Assembly: GCA_950295325.1 (NCBI GenBank)
Contig: OX485807.1
Span: forward strand, 10,441,001-10,505,000
Source of the DNA: Polytrichum commune
Lineage: Eukaryota > Streptophyta > Polytrichopsida > Polytrichales > Polytrichaceae
Direction: 5' to 3'
Length of the DNA: 64,000 bases
The notes beneath the pieces were generated by a model. The model searched no databases. It had not been told where the DNA came from and was given only the letters and a program-made list of their open reading frames with translations. The translations under genes and the position numbers were made by a program. Below, piece by piece: positions 3,481-64,000 of the stretch. Position 1 is the first letter of the stretch. The number at the start of each line of letters is the position of its first letter.

Positions 3481-6400
3481 TTAAGCTTTCATATGCTTCT
3501 GGCTCCATAACACACTACCACCTACCACATCTCTTATCAAAAATTGATCCCCTCCTACATGTGGATGCATGAGAGGTGCATCACCTATTAGAGCATGTGT
3601 AACGTCCACCTTGTAGGAAAATTGGGGTATTGCTTTAAAATGAAATTTATCTACCCCCCAAACACCACTTATCTTGCCTGATGCGACTATTGTGCGCGGA
3701 TTCTTGAAATCCATCAACTGCACAACCTGTCCAAAGTAGAACTGCCCCAACCCAACATCCACAACATACACTGGGCATATTTATCACTCACATATAGTAG
3801 ACACATTGCACTACCACCCATTGCTTACATATCTACCAACTTACACATCATTCATCAAAACAAATGACAAACAACACATTCTATGGAATCAGTTTGGAGT
3901 CATAATCTTACTCTTTGCACTGAAGGCCCTTCAATGACTGGAATCTCCACTGCTTTCACTTTCCTTGTTCGAAGTTCGATCCCTGGACTTATCTGCACAC
4001 AAACCCATATATTACATTTAGTCATACTCAATCTAACATAGGTGAGGGGACATTCCCCAATGTGAACTAGTAGCTCACAAGTCCCCTCACCTGACAACTT
4101 AGGTTGTCCCAACATGTTTGAGTTTGGATGTTTCAAAGTTGAACTTCGGGTCGTCCTTCCAGCCGCATGTAAAGTTGTAACATCTGTAACTCCATTTTCT
4201 GTAGGTGGTAATAGACCTCGAAACTGCTGAACATCAGGACTACTAGCTAGGCTCTCTAGAAGAGGCCACAAATTCTGTCTCAAATAATTCTTATCATCTG
4301 CAAGTTTTTTCATGTTTTCCACATAGAATGCGGGCGGGATGATGATGTTAGCGATTGGATTGCAGTCCACCAAGGCTCCAATGTGGTCAATGATCATCGT
4401 ATTGCTCTCATTCCATAACGGCCAAGTACTCCATACTTTTGACAAGGGTTTTTTCCATTTTGACTTTCCACTGTTATGAGAGACGTCCATGCATTCCTTT
4501 GCTGACCAGCAAAACAATGGCTTATGGCTATCCATCCCCTCGAACCTCCTTGTCATCTCAGCCACTACGTCTTCCATGTTCCCTAAACTTTTGATACCCC
4601 AAAACGCAACTCTAAATTTCTTAAAGCACCTGTCTAGGAATTCAGTCAACCAAGGTCTGAACACAAACCTACGTGTCAAAGACTTCCTAGTAATACGGAT
4701 GTTGGAGTTAGGATTCGATTCTGACAATAGACTGCAATCTACAAGGGTGCCATGGATATTAAAAATCAAAAGTTTGGTTGCAGAGTTTGTACCAATCATC
4801 CCGAGGTCGGTGCTCACCTGGTCATGTGGATGAGCTTCTTGACAGGCACTAGTTTCTACATTTGTAGGAGACTTCTGCTTATGTTTTCTCTTAGTTTTAG
4901 GCCTGACCCTTTTCAGAGGTGACAATGGGGGGGCCAGGTTAGCATCATTGGAAAGAGGTCTATCAACTCCACTCCCTGACCCACCACTATTGCCCTCACC
5001 ACTCTCTGCCCCTACAACATGACCATCCGCTAAGGCCTCTACCTTACTCTCACCTTTTCCGCCCTCTACACAAGATTTCTCACCACCATCCCCATTCCCA
5101 GGTGCTTTAGGAGTGTTATCTCCCATGGGTGCCACTACATTGCCCCCTCCTAAACTCCCATCCTCTGTAGCTCCACCTTGCGGATTCCCTTCTACCTGCA
5201 TTACAGACTTCCCTTTCAGCTTGGCCACATCTAAGGCATCCTCAATTGGGTTCACCTTCAAGCGTTTAGGGTGGGTGGGGGGGTCACCTGCACTACCTGC
5301 CACTGAATTCAACATACGATCCAAACTTGGCATTTGTGAATTAGTATTTTGGGCTGTGGGTGACTGAGGCTCACATACGGTCACAGGGTTACCTATCTTC
5401 TCCATCATAATGGAGAACATTGTAGAAAGGTTCTTTAGGACCAGCTGGTTCTTTTCTGAACTATGCAATACTTCAGACAATTGCTGTCTAAATTCATTAT
5501 GTGTACTCTCTATTGCAGACATCCGTGCTGATATCCTTCCTGAAACCCCTTGCTGTTTAAACACAGCCACAAACAAGTCGTTAGGGTTTAGCATACCAAA
5601 TAGGTCCTACAATGACTCAGACTGTGTAACTATGACTCACAATTGACTACCAAATGACTAAACTACATAATTCCACCAAAATATAGAACACCAATGACTG
5701 CATGAATATGACTGGCAACCCGTGACATAACTGCCAAAAAACTCCTGAAATGACTCCAAAATGACTGCAATATTGAAAAATACTTACAGATGTACATGCC
5801 CCGATCTGCTCGGACTCTTGGAAATCCTCTGCGATTTCGGTAATCCCTGGGCTCCTTTGCCTTTTTTTCCGCTGCCACAGCAAGGGAGATAAGTCAAAAT
5901 TATATGGGTGAGTAAATATAACTATATGCACCTTCACAAACTGAATTAGAAATTTATATACGTACCAGTAGAGCCTCTTTTCCTGCCTTTCCAGCCCTTC
6001 CAACATTTGATTGGTTCTTCACTTGTTGCCTTGCCTTGGCCATCACCTGCGATTTCTGCTTTGTCTCGGGTTTTGCCCAATATTCACATAAGCGTGCCCA
6101 TTGATCAGGTTCGACGAAAAGAGGGCATTGTTTTTTCCCCGACATGAACCAACCTTTCATTTTAGACCGCTCTGTTTTCATTTGTCTTTTTACAGCATTT
6201 TTGAAGCCCACATTGGATAGGGGGTGGTCCAAATACTCAAATTCATTATCTAGTGCGGCTCTAAGCTTCTCTACAGAGGCAGGATTCTGCATCTTCCACG
6301 TTAGGCAGCTCACATCCAATATCCTAGGTACCAAGCTACGGAGCGCCTCATCAAATGCATTTTTACCTTCACAACCTCCATCTATGCCACCGCTGGCTTT

Positions 6401-9004: not shown

Positions 9005-10781
9005 TTCGATGGCGGCAGTCACATGAGAGCCCCCAAGCACACACCTCCGCGCGCTCCGCCGACTTGGAAAGGCGGGATTAGGGTCGGAAGCTGGCCGTTG
9101 TCTGTGGAGTGCCTTTGCACTACAGATGTCGCGCCTGCACCATGCACGGCGTCCTTCAAGGTATGTTTTCTAAACCCTCTCTACATGGCTAACAATTTGT
9201 AAACCCTCACACACTACGGATGGATCCACTGCCGCACTCGCGGAGGCCAGAAAACGGTAGGGATAGAGGAGGCAAGGGTTTGGGTTGCACCCGAAGTTGA
9301 AAGGAGAGAGACGAAATCTCCTCCGTCCATCTCTAATCTCGAAGGACGTCACTTGCCAACGTGGCAAGCCACGTCACCATAGAAAAGTATGCCCTTTACC
9401 AACATGCACACGTGGCCTCTATAAACGACTACAATATGTCTTGGAGGCCATTTATCGTTACACGCAGCCTAACAAATGACTGAATTATAGTCGTATGTAG
9501 GTATAACCCTTTACGACTAATTTACAACTATATACTTTATCGGAGTTGGCGGAAAATTCGCGAGGCTCTCAAAATCGCCGAAAACCTCTTTGAATGAACA
9601 GATAAACCCGATAGTGCACATACCACTTTGCCTTAGCTCAGCTCTCAATCAACAGAGAAGACTATAGTAGGATTTCAAAATAGGATTTGAAATGCAGTTA
9701 GAGATGTATGTATAGAAAGCCAAATCCCACAGCAAAGAAAAACCCTAACATATCAGTGCTTCACTGGATAGATACCATTACTCTCGCGCTCTCAGAAATT
9801 GCGTGAAAACATGGGAGCATACATGCTCCTGAACATCTTCATACTTGCAGCCCTCGCTAGTCAACAATAGCTACTTGTGGGGAGAAGAGTTTAGGGAATA
9901 TCTCACAAAGTTATCGCAGCTTCCTGCACTGGCTTGAACATTTCCCTCAATTCTGCAACGCATTTGTCGCGAGCTGTCTCGTACGATCCCTTACTTTGGA
10001 AATCTCCAGCATCTTCTGCACAGGTATGTAATCTCTCACTTGGGTTTAATTTGTTCGTGACAGGTGTTTTTAGTGGCGACCGAACAGAGTCGCCACTGTG
10101 ATCAAACATGGCACCAACACCTGCACCTTCAAAAATAACTCTTCTCCCCAATATCCACAAAGCTAACACTCAATCTAAAACTTTGCACATCGTACACTAA
10201 ACACTACAATTGTATGTTCAATTTTGACAGTTGATTGAAGCAACAAAATAGAGATGAGTATGTCACTATGCGAGTTGTTCTACTTTGCGGTGCTCATAAT
10301 CTAGAGAGTGTGCATGGTCGTTTGAACTGGGGCATAAGTTTCTGGGCTCCTATGTTGCCTCTTTAGGGTTTGGAGACAACTAGGTGACCAAAACCCTAGC
10401 ACTGTCCCTTGTCACTAAGAAATGACTATGTTCTTGTCCACGTGGTGTTAACTATGACTCAAATTCGACTATAGTTTATAATATAAATGACTAATTTCCA
10501 ACTAAATTATTATTGCTAATAGGGGATAAGAAAATACTTTAATTGAAACGACTAAATTATGACTATGAGTCCAAGGATAACTTTACCATATAAATTTCAA
10601 ACAGCGCATCGTAGAATTTTTTGGAACACTCTGTTTTGTTATATAGATCCAATTGTACCTCCTTTATGTAGCTAGTTATAGGGCTCACAACTCATTTGGT
10701 CAAGATTCAATCCGTTAGTAGTCTCTGCCACAATTTGTAATAATGAAGCATGTTTGGAATAATATATTTGTTTGCAGTAAG
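9005..10781. promoter_or_regulatory. Divergent promoter and leader region of the CACTA element
   Basis: This central segment lies between the start of the TNPA-like gene (9004, minus) and the transposase start (10782, plus), so it must hold both promoters. ATGACT/TGACTAT hexamers recur at 9477-9530 and 10420-10570, echoing the element's ends. A splice-acceptor-like sequence (TTTGTTTGCAG) ends at 10777 just before the transposase ATG, suggesting a leader intron. A small minus-strand ORF (9903-10109) lies inside. No exact TATA box could be assigned. Confidence 0.5.
9903..10109 (-). CDS. Small ORF of unknown function inside the CACTA element (68 aa)
   Basis: Starts at MFDHSGDSVRSPLKT and ends at TAG/TGA-free codons until the stop at 9903. 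The second half (SYETARDKCVAELREMF) looks like ordinary helical protein rather than random translation. It sits upstream of both element genes on the TNPA-like strand and matches no CACTA protein I know. The frame crosses a splice-acceptor-like CCTGTGCAG at about 10020, so it could be an intron remnant plus the last exon of a captured gene fragment. It may equally be a leader exon or chance. Low confidence. Confidence 0.3.
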   Translation of the reverse strand: MFDHSGDSVRSPLKTPVTNKLNPSERLHTCAEDAGDFQSKGSYETARDKCVAELREMFKPVQEAAITL

Positions 10782-13700
10782 ATGGAGGACAGAAGACTCC
10801 CCATTAGCGATAAGCGAAGGCAAAAACGACGAGATGACAGGCTATGGAAAAGGGAAGAACAAAGGGCTGCATTGTATAATTTGAAACGAATTCACTGTCC
10901 ATGCTCCAATTGCAAGGGACGTGTTCAATGCTCGTTGGCAAAGGTCAAGGACCACCTCATCCAACATGGCAGAGAACCCACATATAGACTGTGGAGAGGG
11001 CCAGGTGATAGAGACTCATCGGATGAGGAGTGGGAACAAGAATTCAAGACACCTTCGCGAACACGTGAAAATGTCCAATTGGACATTGATTTGGATGTGC
11101 GTTCAATGGTGCAGGATGCATTTCAAGAAATAGACGAACGTCCACCCCCATTGGAAGAAACAATGGAAGAAATTGTCATGGATGCATTTACTGTTGTGGA
11201 TGACCTACAAGATGGAGAAAATGATGACTCCGGAAATGAAGACAATGAAGAACCATTGGGGGACGTTGGCATTGAGCATGGCATGGACGACAACCCACAT
11301 GAATTGGAGGATGCAATTCAAGAATTGTATGAAGGGTCAAAATCATCCATATTGGCTGCGACGATTTTGATCATGACCCTCTGCACAATTCATGGAGTGA
11401 GCAACAAGTTTGCCGATCAATTGTTTGCTCTATTCAGCCTACACCTTCTACCCGGTGAGAACCGCTTACCCAAGAACTACCATGCTGCAAAATCAATGAT
11501 TAGAAAGTTGGGATTAAATTACAACACAATTCACGCTTGTGAAAGAGGATGCGTGTTGTTTAGAGGGCCTTACGAGAATGATGTCCGTTGTCCCAAATGT
11601 AATAAAGCACGATACAAAGACATAGAGAAAAAAAAAAGACCCTGCAAAGTTCTTAGACATTTCCCCTTGATACCTAGACTAAAACGTATGTTTCGATCAC
11701 CTACAATTTCAGAGCTCATGGTTTGGCATTCAAAGAATAGGAGCACAGATGGTATGGTTAGACATCCTTGTGACTCCAAGGCATGGCAACATGTTCATGA
11801 TAATGTAGATCCCACATTTGGGGAAGATGCACGTAATGTACATATGGGACTTGCAGCAGATGGTGTGAATCCCTTCAAGCTTCATCGATCAACTTGGTCT
11901 ACATGGCCAGTGATGTTGCTTAATTACAATATACCTCCATGGTTGACAACCAAGAAATTTTTTGTGATGTTAGCCTTACTTATTCCTGGAAAACAATCAG
12001 TTACATCACAATTTTTCGACGTGTATTTGGCACCATTAGTTGAAGAATTACAGCAGCTATGGAATGGCGTGCTAGCATACGATGTGCTCAAAGAAATAGG
12101 ATTTCGCACATTTAGATTGAGGGCAATCTTGTTATGGACAATCCACGACTTCCCGGGGTATGGGACAGTAGCAGGAGTTGTACACCAAGGTTATGTTGCT
12201 TGTCCAGTATGTGGGCCGGATTTTAGGGGAGAGCATTCCATTGAACTTGGAAAACAAACATACACCGACACACGGAGGTGGCTACCACATGATGACCCTT
12301 GGAGATCTTCTAGAATGAAGGATCACTTCAATGGCCGCATTGAAGAAAGAGGGCCTCCCACAGTGGTCACAGCGGAGGAGCAACTACAACGAGGAGTTAA
12401 TTACCAAACTTGGCTTGGGAACGGAAACAAGGATGGTGGTGATGGAGATCCCTCAAAAATACACGGTGTGAAAAGAAGAAGCATTCTTCACGATTTGCCA
12501 TATTGGAAGGTACTTGGGTCTACATTCTCATTGAAAGTCAATCTTATCGCATGATAATCATTCATAGAAGAACAAGGGTATTTCTCGCATATTGATGTGT
12601 ACATTAATTCCAATGTAGGATTTATATTTCTTGGTCTGTAGGTGGTTCCTAATATTTGTTATTTTGTTTTGGTGTCAGGACCTTCTTATTCGATACACAT
12701 TAGATGTGATGCATTGTGAACAAAATCTTTCAAAGAACATTTTGAAGACCATTACAAGACACAAGGATACAGTGAAAGTTAGACGTGACCTACAACGTAG
12801 GGGAATCAGGAAGCACTTGTGGCTCACCAGTAATCCCAAGAAACCTGGTAAAATGTTGAAACCTACGGCCCCGTATGTGTTGACAAGTGAAGAGTTTGAT
12901 ATTTTTGCTAGCACTATAGAATCTTTGAGAACACCTTCAGGCCACATATCCAACATCTCTCCATACATACGAAAGAAAATTTTTGGAGGACTAAAGTCAC
13001 ATGATTATCATGTGCTTATGCAACAAATATTGCCTTTGGCACTAAGGGGTTTGTTGCAACCTGGGCCAAGGATGGCAGTGATGCGGATTTCTAAGGTATT
13101 CCGTAGAATTTGCAGCAAAGTCTGGAATCCATTAGAGTTTCAGGGACTTCGTGTTGACGTTGCACGGAGTATGGCACTCTTAGAGATGCACTTCCCTCCA
13201 TCGTTTTTTGATATTATGACTCATTTGGTCTATCACCTTGTGGACGAATTGGACGTGTGTGGACCAGTTTCAACAAGATGGATGTACCCTGTTGAAAGGT
13301 ACATGAAAACACTAAAGCACTATATCCGAAATATGGCCAGACCTGAGGCTTCTATGGCAGAGGGATATGTGAAGGATGAGTGTCTTGGTTTCATAACAGA
13401 ATATATGCAGAGGTTTGAAGTTGTAGACCGTCGAGTATGGGATGCTGATGAAGAATACGGAGATGCCGAGGAGGTCCTGGAGGGGGCAGGGACAAGTTTT
13501 ATCATGACTCCACCTATGAGAGAACTTGCTCATCAATATGTTTTAACAAACATATCCCTACTTGAACCTTGGCACAGGTGGGTATGGAGCATTGCAGTCA
13601 TTTTTTGGTCATTTGTGAGTCAATCTTGTTTGTGGTTTGACTGTAGTATGATTAGATAATGACTTCTGTGTATTGGACATATAGAACATGTAGTAATTCC

Positions 13701-14449
13701 AATATCTTGTGTTCAGGCAATGGAGGGAGGAACATGAGGAAAACCCGGACATCAACACGTTTGATGTTTGGGTTAGAAGCGCAATACACAACCTTCCACA
13801 TGACCCGAGTAACATTGACGATATTGATAGGGTTCTATTGGTGAACAGGCCATCCCAAAAAGCAACACGATACACGAGGATGCGGGCATTTGGAAACCAC
13901 TTTCGAGTTGAAGATTCACAATCCGCATTGTTGCAAACATACGACAGTGGAATTGCATCAATATTTGAAATGCCAACAGCAGATTCTCAATCCGAGGTAT
14001 CACTAAACTATGTGGGTGTTCTACAAGATATTTTGAAGCTGGATTATGGTCCATTGCGAACTCCAGTAATTCTTTTTCGATGTGAATGGTTCAAAAGGGA
14101 AGACAATCGTGGAAATCCAACGTACATGCGGGATGATGCCGGTTTCATGGTGGTAAATGCTCGACACAAACTACCAAAGATGTCAGAGCCATTTATTTTC
14201 CCAAGCCAAGCTACACAAGTTTTTTTCTCCAATGATTTGACAAAACCAGGTTGGAAGGTAGTGTTGCGAAAGGAAGCAAGATCAAAAAGAGAAGAACAAG
14301 ACACAACTAATGTTTTCATTACAACTACAGTAGAAGTTCGGGGCATGAGTGCTCCTGAGCGTGTGCCTCCACCTCCAAGTACTGCCTGTCTAGTAGGGGC
14401 CATCGAATTATCAGATATTGATAATATGTTGGCAATTGCAAGGTTTTAA
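10782..14449 (+). CDS. TNP2-type CACTA transposase (TNPD-like)
   Basis: Three exons: 10782-12509, 12679-13577 and 13717-14449, joined in phase across GT-AG borders, giving about 1119 aa. The start chosen is the ATG of MEDRRLPISDKRR; an upstream in-frame ATG at 10743 precedes a probable splice acceptor. Domain order is that of plant CACTA transposases. First comes a transposase-associated zinc-like domain (IHCPCSNCKGR, then VKDHLIQHG and YRLWRGPG), then an acidic linker. The TNP2 catalytic region follows (ACERGCVLFRG, CPKCNKARY, LAADGVNPFKLH, LIPGKQS, DVYLAPLVEEL, TIHDFPGYG, CPVCGPD). The first intron interrupts the conserved LPYWK|DLLIRYTLDVMHCEQN block. Exon 2 has DUF4218 (FPPSFFDIMTHLVYHL, RWMYPVERYMKTLK) and exon 3 DUF4216 (VGVLQDILKLDY, LFRCEWFK, PFIFPSQATQVFF). 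It cuts and joins the element's ends in the nucleus. The frame is intact throughout. Confidence 0.9.
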
Positions 14450-19971: not shown

Positions 19972-20250
19972 CACGGTCTCGGTGTGGTCTAACCCCCAAC
20001 AGCCCAGCTGCAGTCTGCCACAGTCTCGGTGTGGTCTAACCCACTAGCAGCCCAGCTGCAGTCACACGGTCTCGGTGTGGTCTAACCCACCAGCATCCCA
20101 GCTGCAGTCACACGGTCTCGGTGTGGTCTAACCCACCAGCAACCCAGCTGCAGTCACACGGTCTCGGTGTGGTCTAACCCACCAGCAGCCCAGCTACAAT
20201 CTGCCACAGTCTCGGTGTGGTCTAACCCACCAGCAGCCAGCTGCAGTCTA
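19972..20250 (+). repeat. Minisatellite, about six units of 46 bp
   Basis: Units start at CTGCAGTC-like positions 19972, 20008, 20056, 20102, 20148, 20194 and 20241 (steps 36, 48, 46, 46, 46, 47). The core of each unit reads GTCTCGGTGTGGTCTAACCC. It lies within the solo LTR; I do not see it in the second LTR copy. Confidence 0.95.
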
Positions 20251-53027: not shown

Positions 53028-56000
53028 ATGTTCTCCCCAACTTCATCTTCCCATGTGGAGGACGATCCTGAAGAAGAACTGCCTCGCAGTGGCGGTTCTG
53101 GTGCGTTCAATCCACTATCTCAAAATTCTCCAATTCTACTACTCTATGGTTAAATGTCCTTCAATCCCCTTATGAAATTCGTTCGTGAAATCCTATTTCT
53201 CAGATCTGGCCCTACTATAAATGCCATTCGGTTTCATCATCGCAATTTGGAAGCATTTTGCAGATCGCCTGTAGAGATCTTCCTGCTGGAGCTTCTCATT
53301 TCGTCATTAATCTGTTCAGAAGCGTGCTCTGCTTTATTTTGGTCGTGCAGAGTTAGTTGACTGTGGCTATATAGTATATTTAGGACAGAAGTGCTCAGCT
53401 TCTTATTACGGCAATGTCGATGTGAGCCTATTGAGACCTCCTTGTGAAGCTAACATGGACGTTGCATATAGTAACGCTGTGCACTCCTGCTGCCACTATA
53501 TTAAATTCCTTTGCTTTTCTCGGACCTTACAGGAACCCAATTACTCTGCCTCGAATGGCGTGCAGTAAATCGGCTATGTTGTCAATCTTACTTGGTCTCA
53601 CCATTTGTGAGGTTTAAGATGATTAAATTAGCAACAGTCTACAGGGCAGAAACGGCTATTTTTTAGCCAATAGAAGCCTTATTAGCGTCCATATGGGGGA
53701 TGATGATGTTGTTCTTCAAACTACGAAGCTTAGGTTCTGTTATCATTTTTGCGGATGACGAGATCTGAATACAAGAGGTTGATTGCTTGATCTACCTCTT
53801 CAGCGTCTTCTTCACATAGATCTTGGATTTGGGCCACTGAGGTGTTTCAAGCGTTGTTGAGGCATCCAGTAATTCCTTTTTGCTAGAATAGGTACTGTGG
53901 TTGATTTTGAATCCGCTAGATAGACTCTTCCAACAATCTGTGGGGTTTTAGGAGCGCACAATTTCTCTTAAACTCTGGAGAACAGTATGAACTGAGTTAC
54001 CTAGTCTCACGCAGCAGTTTTTGGAAGGGTTCATGGGCATTCTGAATTTTCTTCAAAGTTCGCATTTTTTGCACTACATTCTTCTAGTCCTGGTGAAACG
54101 CATGCACTTCGGGTCTCTTTGTCGATCATTCCTTGTCTGCTCTATTCTTTCAGTACCATAAAGAGAGATGGTCGTTCTAGAACATACCTTTTCATTTTGG
54201 ATTTCTCCATTCGTTGAGATAACCTCAACTTGCGCAGTTTTTTGGGCAGTCCAGGGGGTTCTTCTAAGAGTTTTGTAGCAACAACTGTATGTTCCTCCGA
54301 ATTTGCAGAGAAATTCGGAGAAGTTGCTGAAGGAAAGTCTTCAGTTCGGAAGACTGTTATATTTTTTGCTTGCTCCTACTGGACTGTTCTTCCTTGTATT
54401 CCTTGACTTATTCTCTTCCTGTTCCATTTCGTTCTAAAGAAAAGATTCCGGTGAGAGCTTCTTTTACATCATCCTTTTTGATCATTTTCTGTAGTTCGTT
54501 ACTTGCTTTATACAGAGAGGTCATTCGCTTTGCAACCTAAACACAATATCCGGATTCTTCTAGTATATGTGAGATTTTTGTCAACTGTGTATTGCGTCTT
54601 TTAGCATCTTGTGCCTAACAAATGCCAAATGCCCTCTCAAGAAAAGCCCTTCATCCTCTCCATCTAAATTTGTCATATCTTGTGAGTAGGCTGTTGTCTA
54701 CAAATTCGAATTACTACCGAATCCGTGTGACTTCATGATCCGTGTGGCTTCATGATCCGTGTGGAGCTCTTTTGACCTTTGACATTATGTTGGCAGGTAC
54801 ATGTGGTGGGGTAAGAGTAGCACCGGCATCTTCTACTCCCACAGTGATTGTAATTGGTGCTGGCTTTGGAGGCTTAGCTGCTGCGCGGTTTCTTCACAAC
54901 TCAAATTTGAAGGTACAGGTTTCAAGATTAGATTTATATTCTGTTTTACGATTTGGTGTTTTCAGATTGCAGAGACACAGCATTATGTCCTTTAGGACAT
55001 CTTGCCTAGCATATTGGTACACAGCTTTCCATACTGTCAGCACTTAATCAAAGGGATTTTGATTGGATGATTTAGTATCTGTATATACACAGCTCAAAGG
55101 ATGTACTCTAAATGCTTGTTTGCTTCAGGTTGTTGTGTTGGAGTCACGTGACCGGATTGGGGGCCGTGTTTATACTGACTACTCTTTCGGGTTTCCTGTT
55201 GATATGGGGGCTTCATGGTAAATTACTTGCCATTTTAGTTTATGTTGAGAGATCTTGAGGAATTTGTAGCTTGTTATCTCTTTCTTTGTTTCTCTTTGTC
55301 CTCTCTAGTATTCAAAGAAATCAAGTTTGTGTATCTTACCTTGATTCAAATGGGGGTTGGACAGGCTGCATGGAGTATGCAAAGATAATCCCTTGGCTCC
55401 TGTGATTGGAAAGTTGAGGCTGCCTTTATACAGAACCTGTGGGGACAACTCAGTGCTCTATGATCATGACCTACAAAGGTATACCTCCTATTAGAATGTC
55501 TACACATCTATACTCATCTTCAACTTAGTCTTCTTCAGCAATATCACTATTGTCTCTGTTTAGAAGAATGTGTAGGATAGCAATTGGATGCAATTCTAAG
55601 TCAGTCCAGATCGAGAGGTTTGTTAGGTATGCAGGCAGGTAACAATTCTCATTACTTCCTTCTTCTTTACCATAGAGGTTTACAATAGCCATTGTAATTT
55701 TATATTTTTTATATTTTCGGTGTAAACTTAGACTTTTGGTTGAGGGGAATGTCTGAGATTCATGATAGACAAGTCCGAAGTGCTGAGTGGTCCTTCCACA
55801 GGGGTCAAGAGCAGGGAAATCCTGGTCCTACGTTTGATTACTACCTTCACTTCCATTCAAAGTTGACTGATTTCTGAGCAGATGGTAGTAGAGACTTGAA
55901 TACTTGCAGTGAGGTGTTGAGTTTTAATCTTGAGGACCTTAGTATCCCACCCACTGACCAGGGTCAGATTGTTGGCTAGCGGTACTAGTTTTTCGCCATG

Positions 56001-58846
56001 GGCTTGGCTCCAGGGAAACCCTACACACCGTTCTCCAATATCTGACCCCTGGTTTCTGGGTGCTGTGATTACTGAGCTAGTTATTATACCGGGTGGGTTG
56101 TTTAGGGGTATTGTTTAGAGGGCATGAAAGGGGCAGGTGTGTTGGTGACAAATTTAAACCACATAATGTGGCAAGGAGCGGGGCTGAGTAAACATACTTG
56201 GCCGACTAAATCCCCCCAGAGGTGATGTCACGTCTCCACCTGTTGCTCATCTCCCATGTGGAGCTGCTCCCTCACCGATCCCCCTCCCCTCCCCTTCTTT
56301 TTTCCTTCTCTTACCCACTTGCTGATAACGCTTTGTGGCGGTGTCATCAGAAGTGGCGAGTGTGAGGTTAGTGTAGGATCAGTGGATACGGTCTCTAGAG
56401 GAGAGACCTAAAGAAGAGGTGGTTGGAACTAGAAATGGAAGTGCTGTGGGAGTACAGAGATGAAGAGACTTGTCATTGTGCTCAGTCTATTTTTTATGGT
56501 ATTTTGCAGTTATGCACTGTTTGATATGGAGGGGAAGAAAGTTCCACAAACGTTGGTGACACAAGTTGGTGGGGTCTTTGAGAGCTTATTGGAAGAGGTA
56601 CGATTTGTCATTTGTGCACGTGCTATGCTTATCTGTTGTAAAACATCATATTGTGTGGGATGGAAGGAGTATGTTTGGTTGCATAAGAACTTATTACGTA
56701 AGTACTTACTATCTGATGTGATAAAATCTTGCTTGTTTGTCAAATTTCAGACCAAGAAGCTCAGGGATGAGCACACTGATGATATGTCAGTACTGAAGGC
56801 CTTTACCCTGGTTCTGGAGAGGAGACCTGATTTGAGGTTGGTTATTCATGGGATTCAAACTCTATCTCATACAGGCTGTTATCTTTTTCTCTTGGCAAGT
56901 AGTGGAATTCAGATGGATTTTGGTACATTCAGATTTGCAGTTTGGTGGTTTGAGAGATTTAATCCGTGTTTTGTTATGCATGGATCATCTTTATTCATAA
57001 GTGCAGGTGTTTTTGTGCAGGCAAGAAGGTATGGCTCATAAAGTTCTGCAATGGTACATGTGCCGCATGGAAGGCTGGTTTGCAGCTGATGCAGATAATA
57101 TATCTGTGCAGAGTTGGGATGAGGTACTGTGGCGACTCTTAGTTCTCTGGGTCCCTTCCAGTTCGTAGTTATTAAGACAAGTTTTTCAGTTGAGTCAGCT
57201 TGAAGATGGCTGTCTGATATGATATAATCTGCAATTTCCTCTTCATGATTGATGGACTGGTAAGCTGTTATGTTTTGATTTGTCTGACTTGGATTCTTCA
57301 TTGGTTTTATCTTACAGGAGGAGTTGCTCCAAGGTGGGCATGGTTTGATGGTGAGGGGCTATGAGCCTGTAATCAGGTCCCTTGCTGAGGGTCTCGATAT
57401 CCGACTCAATCACAGGTTAGTTCTCCTGACTGGTCAAATTCTGGTTGTGTGTAGCTTGTCTTTCAGCCGTAGGCTTGTCTGCTTGTCTTCTCATCTACCA
57501 ACCTGGATCATTAAGGGTATTTAAACAATTTGTGCAATAGATTTGAGCTGGAGTCATGTGCTGAAACTGCTTTTGTTGTTCAGAGTCGAGGAAGTGAGCC
57601 GATGCAGGGAAAAAAACAGGGTACGAGTCACCACAGTTGGAGGCAAGGTATTTGAAGCAGATGCTGTGGTTATTGCTGTGCCTCTGGGAGTACTGAAATC
57701 CAACTTTTTGCACTTTGAGCCAAGACTGCCTGAGTGGAAGGAGGAGGCCATTGCGGATTTGGGAGTGGGCAATGAAAACAAGATTGCTTTGTTTTTTGAG
57801 AAAGTGTGTTGGCCCAATGTGGAGTTTCTTGGGGTTGTTGCCCCAACTTCATATGGCTGTAGCTACTTTTTAAATTTGCACAAAGCAACTGGTCATCCTG
57901 TGTTGGTATATATGCCTGCAGGTACAGATTCTCCTCATATGCTAGAGATTGTTGGCTTCTTCACCACATTAATTGTACAGCTTTAGAGTTAAGTGTCTCT
58001 CTGTGTGTGCATACACTCGAGTACGCTCATTGTGCTTGCACATGATGCTAAATTCTGGGTTGATTTTGTGCAGGAAGTCTTGCCAATGACATCGAGAAGC
58101 TATCAAATGAGACAGCTGCCAATTTCGCTATCAGGCAATTGAAGCGGATCCTGCCCGATGCTGATGAACCGGTACGAACTTCAGAGTCATGGTGGATCCA
58201 GCCTTTGGAAAACCATGAAAGAAGTCATCAAGGCCTCTGCTTGTTAGCAACATTTGTTCAAATGATGAGTGCTCATTATTTTAACCATTAAGGCATTGCG
58301 AGAGACTGGAAATGGGTACATGTTATTGAATTGTGTGAGAACACTACAGCCAGTGTTGATTCTATTATTTAGGCAGGTGCTGGGCTTACTGCTAGGGTCC
58401 TTCTTTAGTTGACCAGATATTGTCCTAGGACCAAGTATGCTGTATACACAAAGAGGCTGTTGTGAAGATGATTCATTAGGCTCTGCTCTGCTCTGCTCTA
58501 CATTGAGTTAATACTCACTCTGAGTTTTGTAGTGCAGATTCAATACTTAGTATCGCGCTGGGGAACAGACCCGAGCTCCTTGGGCTGTTACAGCTATGAT
58601 GCAGTGGGGAAGCCCCATGATCTATATGAGCGGCTGCGGAAGCCAGTGGACAACATGTTCTGGGCTGGGGAGGCTACGAGTGAGAGGTTTCCTGGCACAG
58701 TACATGGTGCCTTTGCAACGGGTGTCATGGCAGGCAACGAGTGCCTCAAGAGATTTGCTGACAGGTGTCGGGATCTGGAGATGTTCCAGCCCGTCATGGC
58801 GAAGGAGGACGAGTTGGTGATGCCACTGCAAATCTCTCGCATGTGA
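53028..58846 (+). CDS. PAO: Peroxisomal polyamine oxidase (AtPAO2/3/4 type)
   Basis: FAD-dependent amine oxidase that oxidises spermine/spermidine with release of H2O2, in peroxisomes. Eleven coding exons with GT-AG introns, all in phase: 53028-53100, 54797-54912, 55129-55217, 55365-55478, 56510-56597, 56751-56836, 57021-57123, 57318-57415, 57584-57921, 58074-58171, 58538-58846; 503 aa, close to the plant length of about 490. FAD dinucleotide motif [15 protein letters not shown] at residues 41-55, then [17 protein letters not shown] and DMGASWLHG. The conserved active-site lysine is K322 ([10 protein letters not shown]), and the C-terminal FAD motif is MFWAGEA...TVHGAFATG. The last residues are SRM, a type 1 peroxisomal signal like AtPAO3/4. 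The start ATG at 53028 was chosen because its exon joins 54797 in phase; the ATG at 54787 lies in the acceptor. Introns 1 and 4 are long (1696 and 1031 bp). No break is seen. Confidence 0.93.
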
Positions 58847-61595
58847 ATGATCCAGCTCGATGACAAGCCTGCCTGCCCGCGCGCCCTGCCCCTTATGTTG
58901 CATTATGTTGTTGCTGGATGATGTCAGCAGTAGTCAGTGTGCTCTCAAGGCTGCGTAATTGGTTGTGCTCATTCTCAGAGACTTTGAAGCTACTAGTTCG
59001 ATCTCTGCAACCATGGTCAGGTCAGATGCGGTGGACTTCAACTTCTGCTACATTTCACCATCCCTGGAGAGCGAGAAGTCGGTGAGGAGACTGAGCATGT
59101 ATGGAGCCAAAGATCGTCAACACCCTACAGACTGTATGCCTATGAGAGCTTGCGGGTAGTCTTAGCCGCGGGTAAGGCGTGCATAGAGTCGCGAACGGGG
59201 TTTATAGTTTTTACTCGAGCTGAACAGGGCAGGACAGGAATGAAATCACTCACTAGGGGACCTGCCTGCCACCCGGCCATGATTTTAGTGGTGTTGAGCA
59301 TTGTCACCTCTGTAGTGGAGTATACAGGAAAAAAATGGTGAGGGGACGGGTGTGTTGCAGTGAACGCCCCCTTGATCCCCTCCATATTTTGCCCGCTGCG
59401 CAAGCAAGTCACGGGCACGTAGATCTAGTTACCTTTAGGTCCCCAAACAATGCGCGGTTGGGACAACTCCCCACCCTCTTGCATTTTTAATACTTCCTGC
59501 CTCTTGGTTGCCCACCATTCTTTCTTATAATTTACCGCCCTTGCGCCGCTGCTTGTGAGGACGGTTGTGCTTATGGTTCCTACCTCGGGTTTTGGCCATT
59601 TCACTGCCACTTTACTATCTTATGCTTTGTCTATATATCTATTCAAATGGAGGTGGAGAGGCAGGCGCCCTTGTGTGCTTCATTGCTCATCGTTGGTCTT
59701 TGATTACTCCATTCATCATGGGGGTGCTCCCATTTACTGTACACCCCATGCCATTAAACCCTGGCACAAGCTAAATAAAAATATCTAGTGAAGGTAATGC
59801 ATTCCAAAGAGACAGGCTCTACATTCTACCACTTCTCAAATCTGATGATCAGTGAAGGATACATATTGAATTTCCATCTTGCATTACCTCTCCAGAAATT
59901 GTTGTGTTGCTTGTTTAGTTCTTCCACAAAGCAAGATTAGGATTTTGTTACGCTACTGTTCTTCATTGATGTCAAGTCATCAAAAATGGTTTGTTGAGAG
60001 TGACTGTTTTGCAAAATCTCCACAATCATGCCACAATGCACATTCATCAGTCTCCTGCAAAACGGGCAATTGTGAATTACACGTGCACATTGCCTTCTTG
60101 ATACCACTTGCAGTTCTGGTGACTAATGTCCTTGTATAAACTTTGCGAATTGTACAGGTTAGGATCTGCAACTATCCAAGTTGGGATATAGAGAACAGGC
60201 CTTGTCAACAAGGGATTGTTGCATATGAGCGTACCTCTCATCTATCCATCCTAAAAACATGCCCCCCAGTCTTAATGCACTTCAAATGTGTCCCATTACA
60301 CTAATGTAGGAATCTAATGCGGGTAGAATATTAGCTTAAAACCATAAACCTCCAACGTACATACTGTTGCACGCGTCTTCGTTGGATGAGTGGGGTAAGC
60401 GTTTATGCAGTTATTCTCCCTTGCCTTGTATTTCATTGGTAGGATGACAATATAAACGATACCATGGATATCAAAATTGACAACTGAGTGCACTCAGAAG
60501 GCTATTAAGATGAAATCACTTTTTCACAAATCACGTACGTAAGTGTCTACCAAATGCACAATTCATTTTGTTAACCAATGTAAGCAGGTTTATATCGAGT
60601 CGATAGGAGATTTTGAACCTTAAAATCAAACAGATGACTTATCATTACGAATCTATATGAGTCTCCGATTTCAAGTATTCAGAATCTCAATTGTCAGACT
60701 TGCGGAAAGTCAACTGCTGATTCCTGCTAAACTGGCCAAACTTTTACATTGTGCTGGCCAAACTTGCGTTGCGAATTTTACACCAATGTTGTATAAGTGG
60801 TTGACATTTACCACCGACGAAGCTGAAGTAATTGACATCACTTATCGGCGACACGTAGCGACAAATTTCTGATGCCGGCAGGCTGGCCAGTAGCGGCGAT
60901 CACGAGGTGGAATCTGGGAAAATTGTTGTGTCCGCATTCGGAAGTGGTGATCGTGCAAGGTGCTGATCATGCGATCATCACCCCGTAGTCATAGCCACTA
61001 TTCTCGTCGACTTGAGCAGGAAAATTGTGGTCACTCATCTGCCTCATCAGAATGAATGGACAGAAGGAATTAGTTAAATAATTCCGACCTTGATTTCGTT
61101 TTGCAATCCCTCATGGCATAAATGCATATACGAATCGATATTGTCAATACACATCACGCACTGTACACACCGTTAGCAGAGGTAGCGCCAAGCGAGCGGT
61201 AGCTGTGAAGCCAAGTTGCAGGCACCTGCGATCATACACAGTACATGATCATTCCGATGTCTCTGGAACTTGATGGCTCTATTGGACATTTGCAAATACT
61301 GGAACACTAACCTTGTCCGTTGATAGTAGATCATAATGCATGAATTGCTGCGTCTAAGCGGATATTTAGATATCTATCCTCAACACAATGTGACGATGGT
61401 TTTAAATGCGAGTATCTTTCTATCTAAGGCTTTTACAATTATTTGATTATTGGAGTATAAAATAAACGCCTAGCTATGGAAAGAAATAACATGTACTTGA
61501 TCGAATTTTTATAGGAAATAGACTAGAACTAGAAATGAACATATGAGATACACAAGTCGCACATGAAGCCATCATGTTGATACACTGGCGATAAT
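58847..61595. other. 3' flank of the polyamine oxidase gene and unannotated intergenic DNA
   Basis: The 3' UTR begins at 58847; no canonical AATAAA near the end was singled out. Short frames between 59100 and 60900 have no motif. The stretch is less AT-rich than the transposon region and has no recognised mobile DNA. Confidence 0.5.
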
Positions 61596-61934
61596 TCATC
61601 TGAGTGTGAGAAGCAGATGGATGTTAGAAATTGTTTTACAAATATTCCAGAAGTTACATGAAGAATTTAAGAACCTGATTGAAACTTTAATTGTGAGCAT
61701 GTCACCAGGTTTGAAGTCTCGTGATGTCGTACACATTGTGTGCTCGTTCTGCTGTAATTCAGCGGATTTTCTTGGAGTTGGTACCTTAATGAACTTCATT
61801 GAATCCACTCTCGACAGAAAATTGGTGATAATCATTGACGTCTTCATGAAAATTACATAAACCTCATCATGTTCTATGGTCTTCTCAGTCGCAACGTGCG
61901 GGTCCCTCGGCTCAATTCGCCTCATGTGAGGCAT
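61596..61934 (-). CDS. Unrecognised minus-strand open frame
   Basis: Open for 112 codons; the central part (PTPRKSAELQQNEHTMCTTS then DFKPGDMLTIKVSI) looks more protein-like than the ends. It lies on the same strand as, and downstream of, the small membrane-protein array. An overlapping plus-strand frame of 84 codons is equally open, so coding is not secure. Confidence 0.25.
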   Translation of the reverse strand: MPHMRRIEPRDPHVATEKTIEHDEVYVIFMKTSMIITNFLSRVDSMKFIKVPTPRKSAELQQNEHTMCTTSRDFKPGDMLTIKVSIRFLNSSCNFWNICKTISNIHLLLTLR

Positions 61935-62094
61935 TTGTACACAACAGTTAGACGTCTGAGCAAACGGTAAAAGTCATGTATCTAAGCAGAAGTGGCCGAT
62001 GCCTGTGCTTGGGACAACCAACATCCTCAGAATGCACCTCTGCGACGTCGTCCACCTTCGAGGTGAATGCAATACTCTCAGATCTGTCTCTCTT

Positions 62095-62280
62095 TTGCTC
62101 AACTCCCGTTCAAATCTGCCTTCATTCCGGAAAGTGAATATAATTCGTAGAGACTATGTTCAACAGTCATAAGCCAGTTGCTATGAGCTTCAAGGTCTCG
62201 CTGCAGTTTCAGAATCCTAAAATTTGATAATGGATGTTCCCATCGTTTGAAGCTACTCTACGTTAAGAACTCGAGTTTCA
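62095..62280 (-). pseudogene. Possible degenerate member or exon downstream of the micropeptide array
   Basis: About 115 bases after the stop of the last array gene, at a spacing like the others, there is an AGTCAGTAGTAGATACAAG sequence and an ATG (62280), but only seven codons to TAG. The same frame is then open for 53 codons with helical character (LKLQRDLEAHSNWLM). It does not encode a membrane segment. It may be an unrelated exon or a broken unit. Confidence 0.25.
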
Positions 62281-62395
62281 TATTGGTGCGCTTGTATCTA
62301 CTACTGACTGTGTGTCATTAAACGGAGTCTGTATAAAAGTCTAAAGAGCTATCAGCTCAGTGTGTCCCTCTTAAAATGACCTTAAGCGAAATCAC

Positions 62396-62548
62396 TTAGG
62401 GATCCTGTTGCTGACTAGGATTCCCCTTGGGAGCACCTAGCGCTTGTGCAGATCTCATGTGGCGCTGTATCTCGATAATTACTATCACAAGGATGAGTAA
62501 ACTGGCTACACTAACAATTGCTGTCATGACAATCTGCACATTATTCAT
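62396..62548 (-). CDS. Small single-pass membrane protein, array unit 1 (50 aa)
   Basis: Family not recognised. MNNVQIVMTAIVSVASLL opens a hydrophobic span to about residue 25, followed by a basic, polar tail (EIQRHMRSAQALGAPK) ending in Gln/Pro. Positive residues after the span suggest the tail is cytosolic. It is 35/47 identical to unit 2, with changes in the membrane span nearly all between hydrophobic residues. The ATG is the first after the conserved GTCAGATTACAG block. No intron is needed. Function is unknown; expression alone or from a shared transcript cannot be told. Confidence 0.65.
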   Translation of the reverse strand: MNNVQIVMTAIVSVASLLILVIVIIEIQRHMRSAQALGAPKGNPSQQQDP

Positions 62549-62652
62549 TGCTCAACCCACTAGTCTGTAATCTGACCGAAACAATGTATTGGAGGATGCA
62601 ATCAATATGCCACTCTTAGAACGACCTTAAGCGAAATTACTTAATAGGAACC

Positions 62653-62796
62653 CTATGTCTGACTAGGATTCTCCTTGGGAGCACCTAGCGCTTGTGCAGA
62701 TCTCATGAAGCGCTGTATCTCGACAATTATTAGCACAAGGATGAATAAAGCGGCTACACTAACAGTTACTGTCATGACAATCTGCTCGGTATTCAT
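62653..62796 (-). CDS. Small single-pass membrane protein, array unit 2 (47 aa)
   Basis: MNTEQIVMTVTVSVAALF starts the membrane span; the tail has VEIQRFMRSAQALGAPK then ENPSQT. It is the closest sister of unit 1, with the RSAQALGAPK tail conserved exactly and the DNA still similar through the coding part and both spacers. The length is near that of unit 1, but the stop comes three codons earlier. Function unknown. Confidence 0.65.
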   Translation of the reverse strand: MNTEQIVMTVTVSVAALFILVLIIVEIQRFMRSAQALGAPKENPSQT

Positions 62797-62887
62797 TCCT
62801 AATCCCACTAATCTGTAATCTGACTGAACAATGTGTCGAAGGATGCAATCAACATGCCACTCTTAAAACGATCCTAAGCAGATTCAC

Positions 62888-63049
62888 TTAGATGCCATTT
62901 TGTTGAGGATTTCCTTGATTAGGAGCGCCATCTATTTCGACTCTTGCTGGCCTGAAGAGGAGGGGGCATATTGTGGCACATATGACCGAACAAATTACAA
63001 GACCGATTAAAGCAGCAAATACTAGGACGAAAATCATCACTCTATCCAT
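62888..63049 (-). CDS. Small single-pass membrane protein, array unit 3 (53 aa)
   Basis: MDRVMIFVLVFAALIGLVIC begins a long hydrophobic, Cys-containing span to about residue 32, then RPARVEIDGAPNQGNPQQ and a short end. The tail GAPNQGNPQQ parallels GAPKGNPSQQ of unit 1, so membership is supported despite a diverged span. Cysteines in the span (four) could be lipidated or bridge; that is inference. Confidence 0.6.
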   Translation of the reverse strand: MDRVMIFVLVFAALIGLVICSVICATICPLLFRPARVEIDGAPNQGNPQQNGI

Positions 63050-63177
63050 GAGAAGGAATCAATCTAAGCAAATGACCCTTGAGTCCTACGGTTCGGCTTA
63101 GTCTGCTAATCCTAATCTGTTATCTGACTGAACAGTCCACCGGGCCCACTCTTAAGACGACCTTCAAGCAGAACTAC

Positions 63178-63411
63178 TTAGAGCCCTTCTTGATGAGGAT
63201 CATTTTGAGGAGGTTCATTTTGAGGAGGTGCATTTTCTTGAGGTTCAACTTGCTGAGGTTCAACTTGAGGAGGTACAGCTTGTTTAGGAGCACGACGATC
63301 ACGAAGACGTCTGATGATGTAATTCTTGACCACGGCAAATACGGAGCAAAAGGCAAAAACGAAGACTACACAAGAAACTAAAATGAGGACAAGCAGGCCG
63401 TATTGATTCAT
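63178..63411 (-). CDS. Small single-pass membrane protein with Pro/Gln tail, array unit 4 (77 aa)
   Basis: MNQYGLLVLILVSCVVFVFA opens a span to about residue 27, followed by a strongly basic stretch (KNYIIRRLRDRRAPKQ). A tail of repeated PPQxEPQ units follows, ending PHQEGL. The tail expansion makes it the longest member. The ending PHQEGL is shared with unit 5, and RRAPKQ matches its TAPKQ. An overlapping plus-strand frame (63079-63381) is considered a shadow because only the minus frame fits the family. Confidence 0.7.
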   Translation of the reverse strand: MNQYGLLVLILVSCVVFVFAFCSVFAVVKNYIIRRLRDRRAPKQAVPPQVEPQQVEPQENAPPQNEPPQNDPHQEGL

Positions 63412-63557
63412 TGGAACAAAAAAAATCTATGCAAACGACTCTTGACGCGTATGGTGCGGCTTAATCTGCTATCCCAAGTGAGTTATCTGACTGAATATTG
63501 TACGGAAGCAGGAAACCTCAATATGCCACCCTTACGACAAACTTCAAGCAGAACTAC

Positions 63558-63701
63558 TTAGAGGCCCTCTTGATGGGGTGCTTCTTGTTTAGGAGCTGTT
63601 GCACGTACGATGAGGATAAAGATCTTGGTAAATACGTAGCACAAGCAAGTGAAACCGATTGCACAAGCAATGAAAATGGCAATCAGCACGAAGATGTCCA
63701 T
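63558..63701 (-). CDS. Small single-pass membrane protein, array unit 5 (47 aa)
   Basis: MDIFVLIAIFIACAIGFTCL starts a nearly continuous hydrophobic stretch to about residue 31, then RATAPKQEAPHQEGL. The tail shares APKQ with unit 4 and ends identically to it (PHQEGL). It is short but keeps the pattern of span, one or two basic residues, and AP(K)Q tail. Function unknown. Confidence 0.65.
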   Translation of the reverse strand: MDIFVLIAIFIACAIGFTCLCYVFTKIFILIVRATAPKQEAPHQEGL

Positions 63702-63865
63702 AAGAAACTATACACACTGCCAGATAGCTCTGGAGACGTACATGTTGCGGCTTCTTCTATTCCTAGTGTGCATGTAATTTGACTAAACATTCTACATAGG
63801 CACGAGATCAATGCCGCTTTAAAAAAACACAATGAACTCAAGCTAAACCGTTATGATTTCAATCT

Positions 63866-64000
63866 TCATGCACGGGAACAGACTCCATCAATGTAGTAGA
63901 AGGTGGAGGAAGATCCCAAACGGGTCAAAGCTAAGTAAGCAATCAACTCAAAGATGACGACGAAGATTATAATCTTGTGCGCTAAAGACTGGAAGGCATG
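63866..64000 (-). CDS. Probable array unit 6, incomplete at the window edge
   Basis: The frame is open from the window edge to TGA at 63866 with no ATG inside, so the start lies beyond 64000. It encodes a hydrophobic stretch (KIIIFVVIFELIAYLALTRL) and a diverged tail without APKQ. The spacer after its stop still has the AGCTTGAG...AAAGCGGCATTGAT and TTAGTCAAATTACA blocks of the array, which is the main reason to include it. Confidence 0.45.
   Translation of the reverse strand, partial: HAFQSLAHKIIIFVVIFELIAYLALTRLGSSSTFYYIDGVCSRA

Follow-up and report, generated by a model that had tools for sequence, protein, structure and literature searches.

A row of small hydrophobic-span ORFs in a five-copy locus family of Polytrichum commune: candidate membrane microproteins held to a type

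Introduction

What is a row of adjacent, same-strand open reading frames (ORFs) of 47 to 77 codons, each with one hydrophobic span, doing at the end of a moss contig segment, and is it translated at all? Genes this small usually escape annotation, and small-ORF screens commonly rank their candidates on sequence conservation or low dN/dS. The row lies in a 64,000-nucleotide stretch of the Polytrichum commune genome (contig OX485807.1, here C5, positions 10441001-10505000), called the window throughout, and the searches described below covered 407.8 Mb in 64 contigs. LEAFY DNA-binding-domain matches occur at three sites in this genome, and of the two that were read one shows the MRDYVHC form typical of mosses, which makes a bryophyte likely. 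A sequence-only reading of the window had proposed a tandem array of tiny membrane-protein genes with conserved spacers, and we examined the array, its relatives in the genome and the DNA around it.

Results

Five ATG-started ORFs of 50, 47, 53, 77 and 47 codons (units 1 to 5, in that order) are present on the minus strand as had been claimed. Unit 1 (62396..62548), the one nearest to a non-coding tail, and its sister unit 2 (62653..62796) are of type III, units 3 (62888..63049) and 4 (63178..63411) are of type II, and unit 5 (63558..63701) completes the row, its start being overlapped by a 35-codon ORF at 63683-63790. Unit 1 has one predicted span followed by a GAPKGNPSQ-type tail, and AlphaFold2 modelled it as a single helix at residues 3-38 with a low-confidence tail; its homologue in another copy of the locus is E_last (L006:4478-4654). 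In unit 4 a 15-bp repeat (63190-63274) gives a Pro/Gln/Glu-rich tail, and the PHQEGL ending attributed to units 4 and 5 is indeed common to both. The two repeat blocks to which units 1 and 2 belong are 84% identical over 290 bp. The two units had been described as differing almost only by exchanges between hydrophobic residues, which holds in so far as most changes fall in or adjoin the span, but 12 of 47 aligned residues differ and the exchanges include N/T, V/E, I/T, H/F, G/E and Q/T.

All five ORFs reach a mean Kyte-Doolittle hydropathy of 2.87-3.12 in a 19-residue window starting at residue 3-6, with a net charge of 0 or -1 ahead of the span and a positive one in the 15 residues past it. 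On the minus strand of the array every ORF of at least 45 aa (5/5) was of this hydrophobic-span type, compared with 0/1 on the opposite strand, and first-order Markov shuffles of the array (n = 4000) contained no such ORF in 3840 cases, one in 158 and two in 2, so that the regularity previously judged to exceed chance was upheld. Both strands of the rest of the window together hold six scattered hydrophobic-span ORFs of 45-80 aa.

No complete unit was found beyond unit 5. The "partial sixth" unit of the sequence-only reading is not an ATG ORF: the stretch at 63866..64000 (minus strand) is the remnant of a sixth module, of type I, with a hydrophobic frame similar to modules of the copies on C2, and in the contig past the window its frame opens directly after a TGA and lacks an ATG, which led us to reject an intact sixth unit. 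Past 64 kb, where the sequence-only reading had proposed to count units, no seventh was found among ORFs of at least 30 aa in the next 7 kb, of which the sequence itself was read over the first 0.4 kb. Between the remnant and unit 5 lies a stretch (63702..63865, minus strand) that belongs to the 359-nt leader examined upstream of unit 5, which extends to L003:2060.

The claim that the array belongs to no known family was borne out for the seven proteins and the seven-row alignment used, in that neither Pfam nor PHROGs gave a match and the PDB offered no relative that convinced. Against Pfam-A (the five C5 units and two proteins of copy B), the best E-value was 0.041 and all matches lay under the curated cut-off; plastid small membrane proteins were rejected, given that no such Pfam match appeared. 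Against PHROGs (the five C5 units, one protein of copy B and one of copy Da), two weak matches were obtained, the best at E 0.016, both to families of unknown function. A hydrophobic profile of seven sequences found six PDB sequences at E up to 1, belonging to V-type ATPase subunit e (best E 0.0068) and to photosystem II protein T (best E 0.17). These share with the units a hydrophobic helix and a similar length, over 25-30 profile positions (25 for subunit e, in the span), but show no similarity in the tail.

Genome searches with the array, the tail, single units and proteins revealed five copies of the locus, each comprising an array and a tail of ~1.8 kb, one on C5 and four on C2, so that paralogous arrays are present in the same genome. 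The C2 copies are E (L006, at 43.56 Mb), B (L004, at 60.48 Mb) and the tandem pair Da and Db (L005, at 64.60 Mb). By our own reading every copy has the same order, namely type I remnants, type II units, a type III unit and the tail. Five copies, all counts being lower bounds, differ from the many genome copies expected of a satellite or transposable element. Stop-bearing homologues, which the sequence-only reading would have taken as evidence against coding function, do occur in the form of stops or frameshifts in several C2 modules, but other C2 modules are open.

The tail (60559..62395, minus strand; its outer end is set where similarity ceases to be detected) has matches in all five copies. 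Among the matches shown, none of its six frames is free of stops. A five-way alignment of the tails has 505 invariant columns among 1327 ungapped ones, and these are clustered, with a variance above that of all 3000 column shuffles and a longest run of 11 (P = 0.021). Conservation is autocorrelated at short lags without a period of 3, and a coding tail was rejected on these grounds, the stops in every frame and the missing 3-periodicity. The tail would thus resemble non-coding DNA under uneven constraint, with alignment error possibly contributing to the clustering. A splice-acceptor-like stretch ending in TTCTCGCAG or TTCTCGTAG is present in four of the five tails (those of L004, L006 and both of L005) and missing from the C5 tail.

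The four spacers of the C5 array, all taken on the minus strand, had been described as the same blocks between all units. Sequence is shared among them, but they are of two kinds, long before units 4 and 3 and short before units 2 and 1. The long spacers 5-4 (63412..63557, 146 nt) and 4-3 (63050..63177, 128 nt) lack ATG on the coding strand and are 81% identical over 69 nt and 77% identical over 62 nt, respectively, to L005. Of the short ones, spacer 2-1 (62549..62652, 104 nt) also lacks a coding-strand ATG, and spacer 3-2 (62797..62887, 91 nt) holds one, as the sole spacer of the four with any. In 1500 shuffles of the 469 nt of C5 spacer the expected count was 6.67 against the single ATG observed (P = 0.0047), whereas the opposite-strand control word CAT occurred 10 times against 9.2 expected. 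Nine C2 spacers showed 18 ATG against 26.8 expected (P = 0.015), and the tail 44 against 40.3. This coding-strand depletion fits a use of the spacers as leaders. The leader of unit 5 (359 nt) had no ATG depletion (7 against 5.7 expected). Inside the five ORFs, pooled, depletion was not clear either (13 against 16.2, P = 0.17; 8 against 8.55 for ATG out of frame), which makes leaky scanning less likely, so that we do not favour it, and fits reinitiation better.

Other signals on the coding strand were sought around the array. TATAAA, TATATA and AATAAA were absent from the 2.4 kb scanned, and a TATTAA word occurs in spacer 2-1. The -3 position of the start context, from five sites only, is C in units 5, 4 and 3 and G in units 2 and 1. 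The four C5 spacers are enriched in coding-strand TAA, with 11 occurrences against 5.8 expected (P = 0.005). RNA structure in the spacers was rejected, since consensus folding of nine aligned spacers predicted no pairs, and no inverted repeats of at least 14 nt within 300 nt were detected in 60500-64000. Introns between units were rejected as well, the GT-AG stretches of ~45 nt, inspected by eye, being too short.

Comparison of C5 with C2 separated the ORFs from their surroundings. Spacer divergence is 0.33 in the type II comparisons (10 pairs) and 0.33 in those of type III (4 pairs), and that of the tails is 0.35-0.37. For units 3 and 4 against the five C2 type II ORFs it is 0.57 (10 pairs, unit 5 left out; each was paired with all five because one-to-one homology is unclear), and their detectable similarity is gone, given that codon-shuffled ORFs differ by 0.58; shuffled spacers differ by 0.52. 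Type III ORFs of C5 differ by 0.52-0.59 from those of Da and Db and by 0.34 and 0.38 from that of E (mean 0.49, 6 pairs), and the latter two values mean that not every ORF has lost similarity. Within C5, units 3, 4 and 5 differ by 0.42-0.52 and the two long spacers by 0.27. Within the C2 clade, ORF divergence is about that of spacers and tail, with type III somewhat higher. Between C5 and C2, the pattern is thus one of surroundings kept and most ORF sequences not, with the C5 ORFs still open and of one type. The same pattern would arise if ORF cassettes were swapped between flanks that stay constant.

The sequence-only reading had looked to a dN/dS well below 1 between units, and this was not what we found. 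Among 10 pairwise fits, eight gave omega values of 0.72-1.48, none distinguishable from 1. Units 1 and 2 gave 6.65 (p = 0.021, uncorrected and one of 10 tests, so that it would fail correction), having 12 amino-acid changes and no codon with a synonymous change alone. The fit for Da_last and Db_last (omega 0.02, length 35) was saturated or misaligned and was excluded. Star-tree omegas of whole ORFs were 1.48, 1.03 and 0.99, none significant. Of six part-ORF fits, the span part of units 1 and 2 with E_last (omega 4.19, p = 0.011) was the sole one below 0.05, and the nominal omega excesses depend on a single young pair. Differences by codon position are near even in C2 pairs (e.g. 14, 13 and 13), compared with 7, 8 and 1 in units 1 and 2 (Fisher 0.021). 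In the latter pair, third positions differ at 1 of 47 sites and the spacers by ~18% (Fisher 0.012), the silent sites thus appearing more conserved than the spacers.

Frame integrity was compared with a neutral simulation from six starting ORFs, with an indel-to-substitution ratio of 0.098 taken from the tail. A unit remained open and hydrophobic with a probability of 0.0095-0.0485 at a branch of 0.25 substitutions/site and of 0.12-0.32 at 0.1. All five type II and III modules of C5 are open; of these, units 1 and 2 are not independent of each other. In C2 we read 8 of 13 such modules as open (B 2/4, Da 2/3, Db 2/2 and E 2/4). The chance of at least 8 open modules among 13 would be 0.0012 if p were 0.2 and 0.018 if p were 0.3, simulated p at branch 0.1 being 0.25-0.43, and the fitted C2 branch lengths of four type II ORFs were 0.12-0.21. 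Such short branches make open frames not rare by chance, so that the C2 count is weak evidence, and frame integrity is the stronger evidence in C5. The 13 modules exclude those of type I as well as short remnants of type II (e.g. L004:5645, L004:~5073-5254 and what precedes the first counted unit in L005), whose boundaries are hard to set; the open fraction would drop if they were counted, most of those read being broken, although one type I module of B is open (L004:5809-5904, 31 aa).

Hydropathy exceeded the omega = 1 expectation at P < 0.05 in three of seven pairs (0.0387; 0.0043 for units 5 and 3; 0.0097 for units 2 and 4). The other four were non-significant (0.061 for units 4 and 5, 0.17, 0.26 and 0.35). 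These pairs share sequences, and the distances of 0.11 (units 2 and 1) and 0.8 (units 2 and 4) were assumed, not fitted.

Discussion

The reading that we put forward, tentatively and with slightly less than even confidence, is that the end of the window represents one of the five copies of a locus family whose row of small ORFs is translated into single-span membrane microproteins held to a type, perhaps polycistronically. Each peptide would be inserted so that its very short N-terminus faces outwards and its tail, basic and rich in Pro and Gln, faces the cytosol. Selection would retain the type (start, span and tail) rather than the residues, which may be why turnover is about that of DNA without constraint, and even faster in units 1 and 2. 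With less assurance, we suggest that the units share one transcript, on which ribosomes would complete an ORF and begin again at the following ATG, and of which the conserved tail would be the 3' untranslated region. A single transcript with restarts would suit the ATG depletion of the spacers, the close packing, and the lack of TATAAA, TATATA and AATAAA between units, as expected if they have no promoter and terminator of their own. Several observations weigh on the other side. The undepleted leader of unit 5 speaks against a shared transcript. The 35-codon ORF across the start of unit 5, the TATTAA word in spacer 2-1, the lack of the upstream palindrome at C5, the four non-significant hydropathy tests, the type III similarity to E, the broken C2 modules and a dN/dS near 1 are further points against our reading. 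The even codon-position differences in C2, with ORF divergence there close to that of spacers and tail, would be the behaviour of non-coding DNA.

That behaviour is what a family of long non-coding RNA genes would display, with spacers and tail functional as RNA or DNA, the ORFs incidental in fast-changing filler, and their openness in C5 due to luck or to a recently lost function. We consider this rather unlikely, though a possibility of some weight. It would accommodate a tail conserved in blocks, with its variance above 3000 shuffles, stops in all frames and no 3-periodicity, as well as spacers kept while units 3 and 4 are saturated, dN/dS near 1 and broken modules among the C2 copies. It sits poorly with a spacer ATG depletion confined to the coding strand, with five of five C5 ORFs open and hydrophobic where neutrality at branch 0.25 allows a few per cent each, with the lack of any consensus pair in nine aligned spacers, and with the absence of an Rfam family from array and tail. 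If function is removed altogether, the locus becomes a decaying array of neutral relics of old duplications; dN/dS near 1 and the like divergence of ORF, spacer and tail in the C2 clade agree with such decay, but the uneven conservation of the tail, the C5-C2 spacers more conserved than units 3 and 4, the five open C5 ORFs and the ATG depletion all run counter to it, and we hold it to be very improbable.

The spacers could instead each contain a compact promoter and leader, the array being five separate tiny genes born by tandem duplication of a whole mini-gene. Their conservation as units, duplicated along with the ORFs, would follow directly, the ATG depletion is compatible with ordinary 5' leaders too, and spacer 2-1 offers a TATTAA word. 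Yet 91-146 nt is very short to hold a 3' end, a promoter and a leader, and the TATAAA, TATATA and AATAAA words are absent from the spacers, though plant signals are loose; we find this arrangement doubtful and give it a small probability.

Returning to type-held microproteins, a more ambitious version, to which we grant a low probability, would make the array a nuclear polycistronic gene with five ORFs in a land plant. Ribosomes would read it by terminating and reinitiating, its products would belong to a membrane-anchor type with free sequence, and its RNA, spacers and long tail included, would be the constrained part. The anchors may bring RNA and ribosomes to the membrane, or the peptides may diversify in a recognition contest. 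If the ORFs are translated, conserved surroundings combined with an unconserved protein mean that screens based on sequence conservation would discard them; if the transcript is shared, the locus would offer a land-plant example of a nuclear mRNA that naturally carries several ORFs.

Searches of open-licence papers showed no report of such an array. Judged by analogy, the closest systems in kind are probably lineage-specific moss small-ORF genes and nuclear multi-ORF loci. Insect pri/tal is a polycistronic smORF gene whose peptides share a short conserved motif; it resembles the array in having several similar tiny ORFs in one gene, but the array units share a type and little sequence, and their single transcript is putative. 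The moss small ORFs are reportedly lineage-specific, by the title of a 2021 paper on them. They comprise ORFs of 40, 41, 57 and 61 residues in transcripts otherwise taken as non-coding, with one sORF each in the table of PMC9638090, whereas the array has five of one type, adjacent and with shared spacers. Green-algal nuclear bicistronic loci are read by leaky scanning, and the relevant passages of PMC11892635 give as its marks a shortage of ATG ahead of the second ORF together with a weak start of the first. Like the array, these loci have close same-strand ORFs with ATG depleted between them; unlike it, they have two ORFs, with ATG rare in the first as well and a weak context at its start, as that account describes them, against five related membrane-type ORFs without clear internal depletion. 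In the part of Vakirlis et al. (PMC7005711) that concerns them, 'TM-first' emerging membrane proteins arise from thymine-rich DNA and, like the units, are short membrane ORFs with little sequence constraint; the array differs from what is described there in that its type recurs in five neighbouring units and again in the sister loci, and in that its surroundings are conserved.

Features in and around the five copies

Searches of L003-L006 with Rfam at gathering scores returned only two genes, both for U2 spliceosomal RNA and both outside array and tail, and at E up to 1 the array and tail of the window copy and of L005 gave no match. The U2 genes (L005:4805-5002, plus strand, 156.3 bits; L004:1232-1350, plus strand, 56.8 bits) lie past the tails of Db and B, respectively, in DNA common to both regions; L003, L006 and window positions 56000-64000 hold none. 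Upstream of Db there is also a mir-9436-like hairpin (L005:9879-9940; 37.6 bits, E 4.6e-05), short of the gathering score of 80. A palindrome-like TGACATG..CATGTCA precedes E (L006:3158-3184), B (L004:6519-6545) and Db (L005:8907-8933). At up to 3 mismatches it occurs at these three places only in the genome, the reversed control pattern at none, so that C5 and Da are without it.

The gene beside the C5 copy, presumably polyamine-oxidase-like, matches three other places, all distant from the C2 copies, and this one gene thus gave no sign of a common neighbourhood. About 3 kb past the array, a 720-aa ORF with a CCHC-like knuckle (L003:5140-7302, plus strand) resembles, we assume, a LINE or gag-like first ORF. 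Elsewhere in the window, positions 10722-14449 (plus strand) contain three long open frames that we take to be related to a CACTA/tnp2-type transposase, and a tandem repeat of six 46-bp copies with 90% matches occupies 19972-20248.
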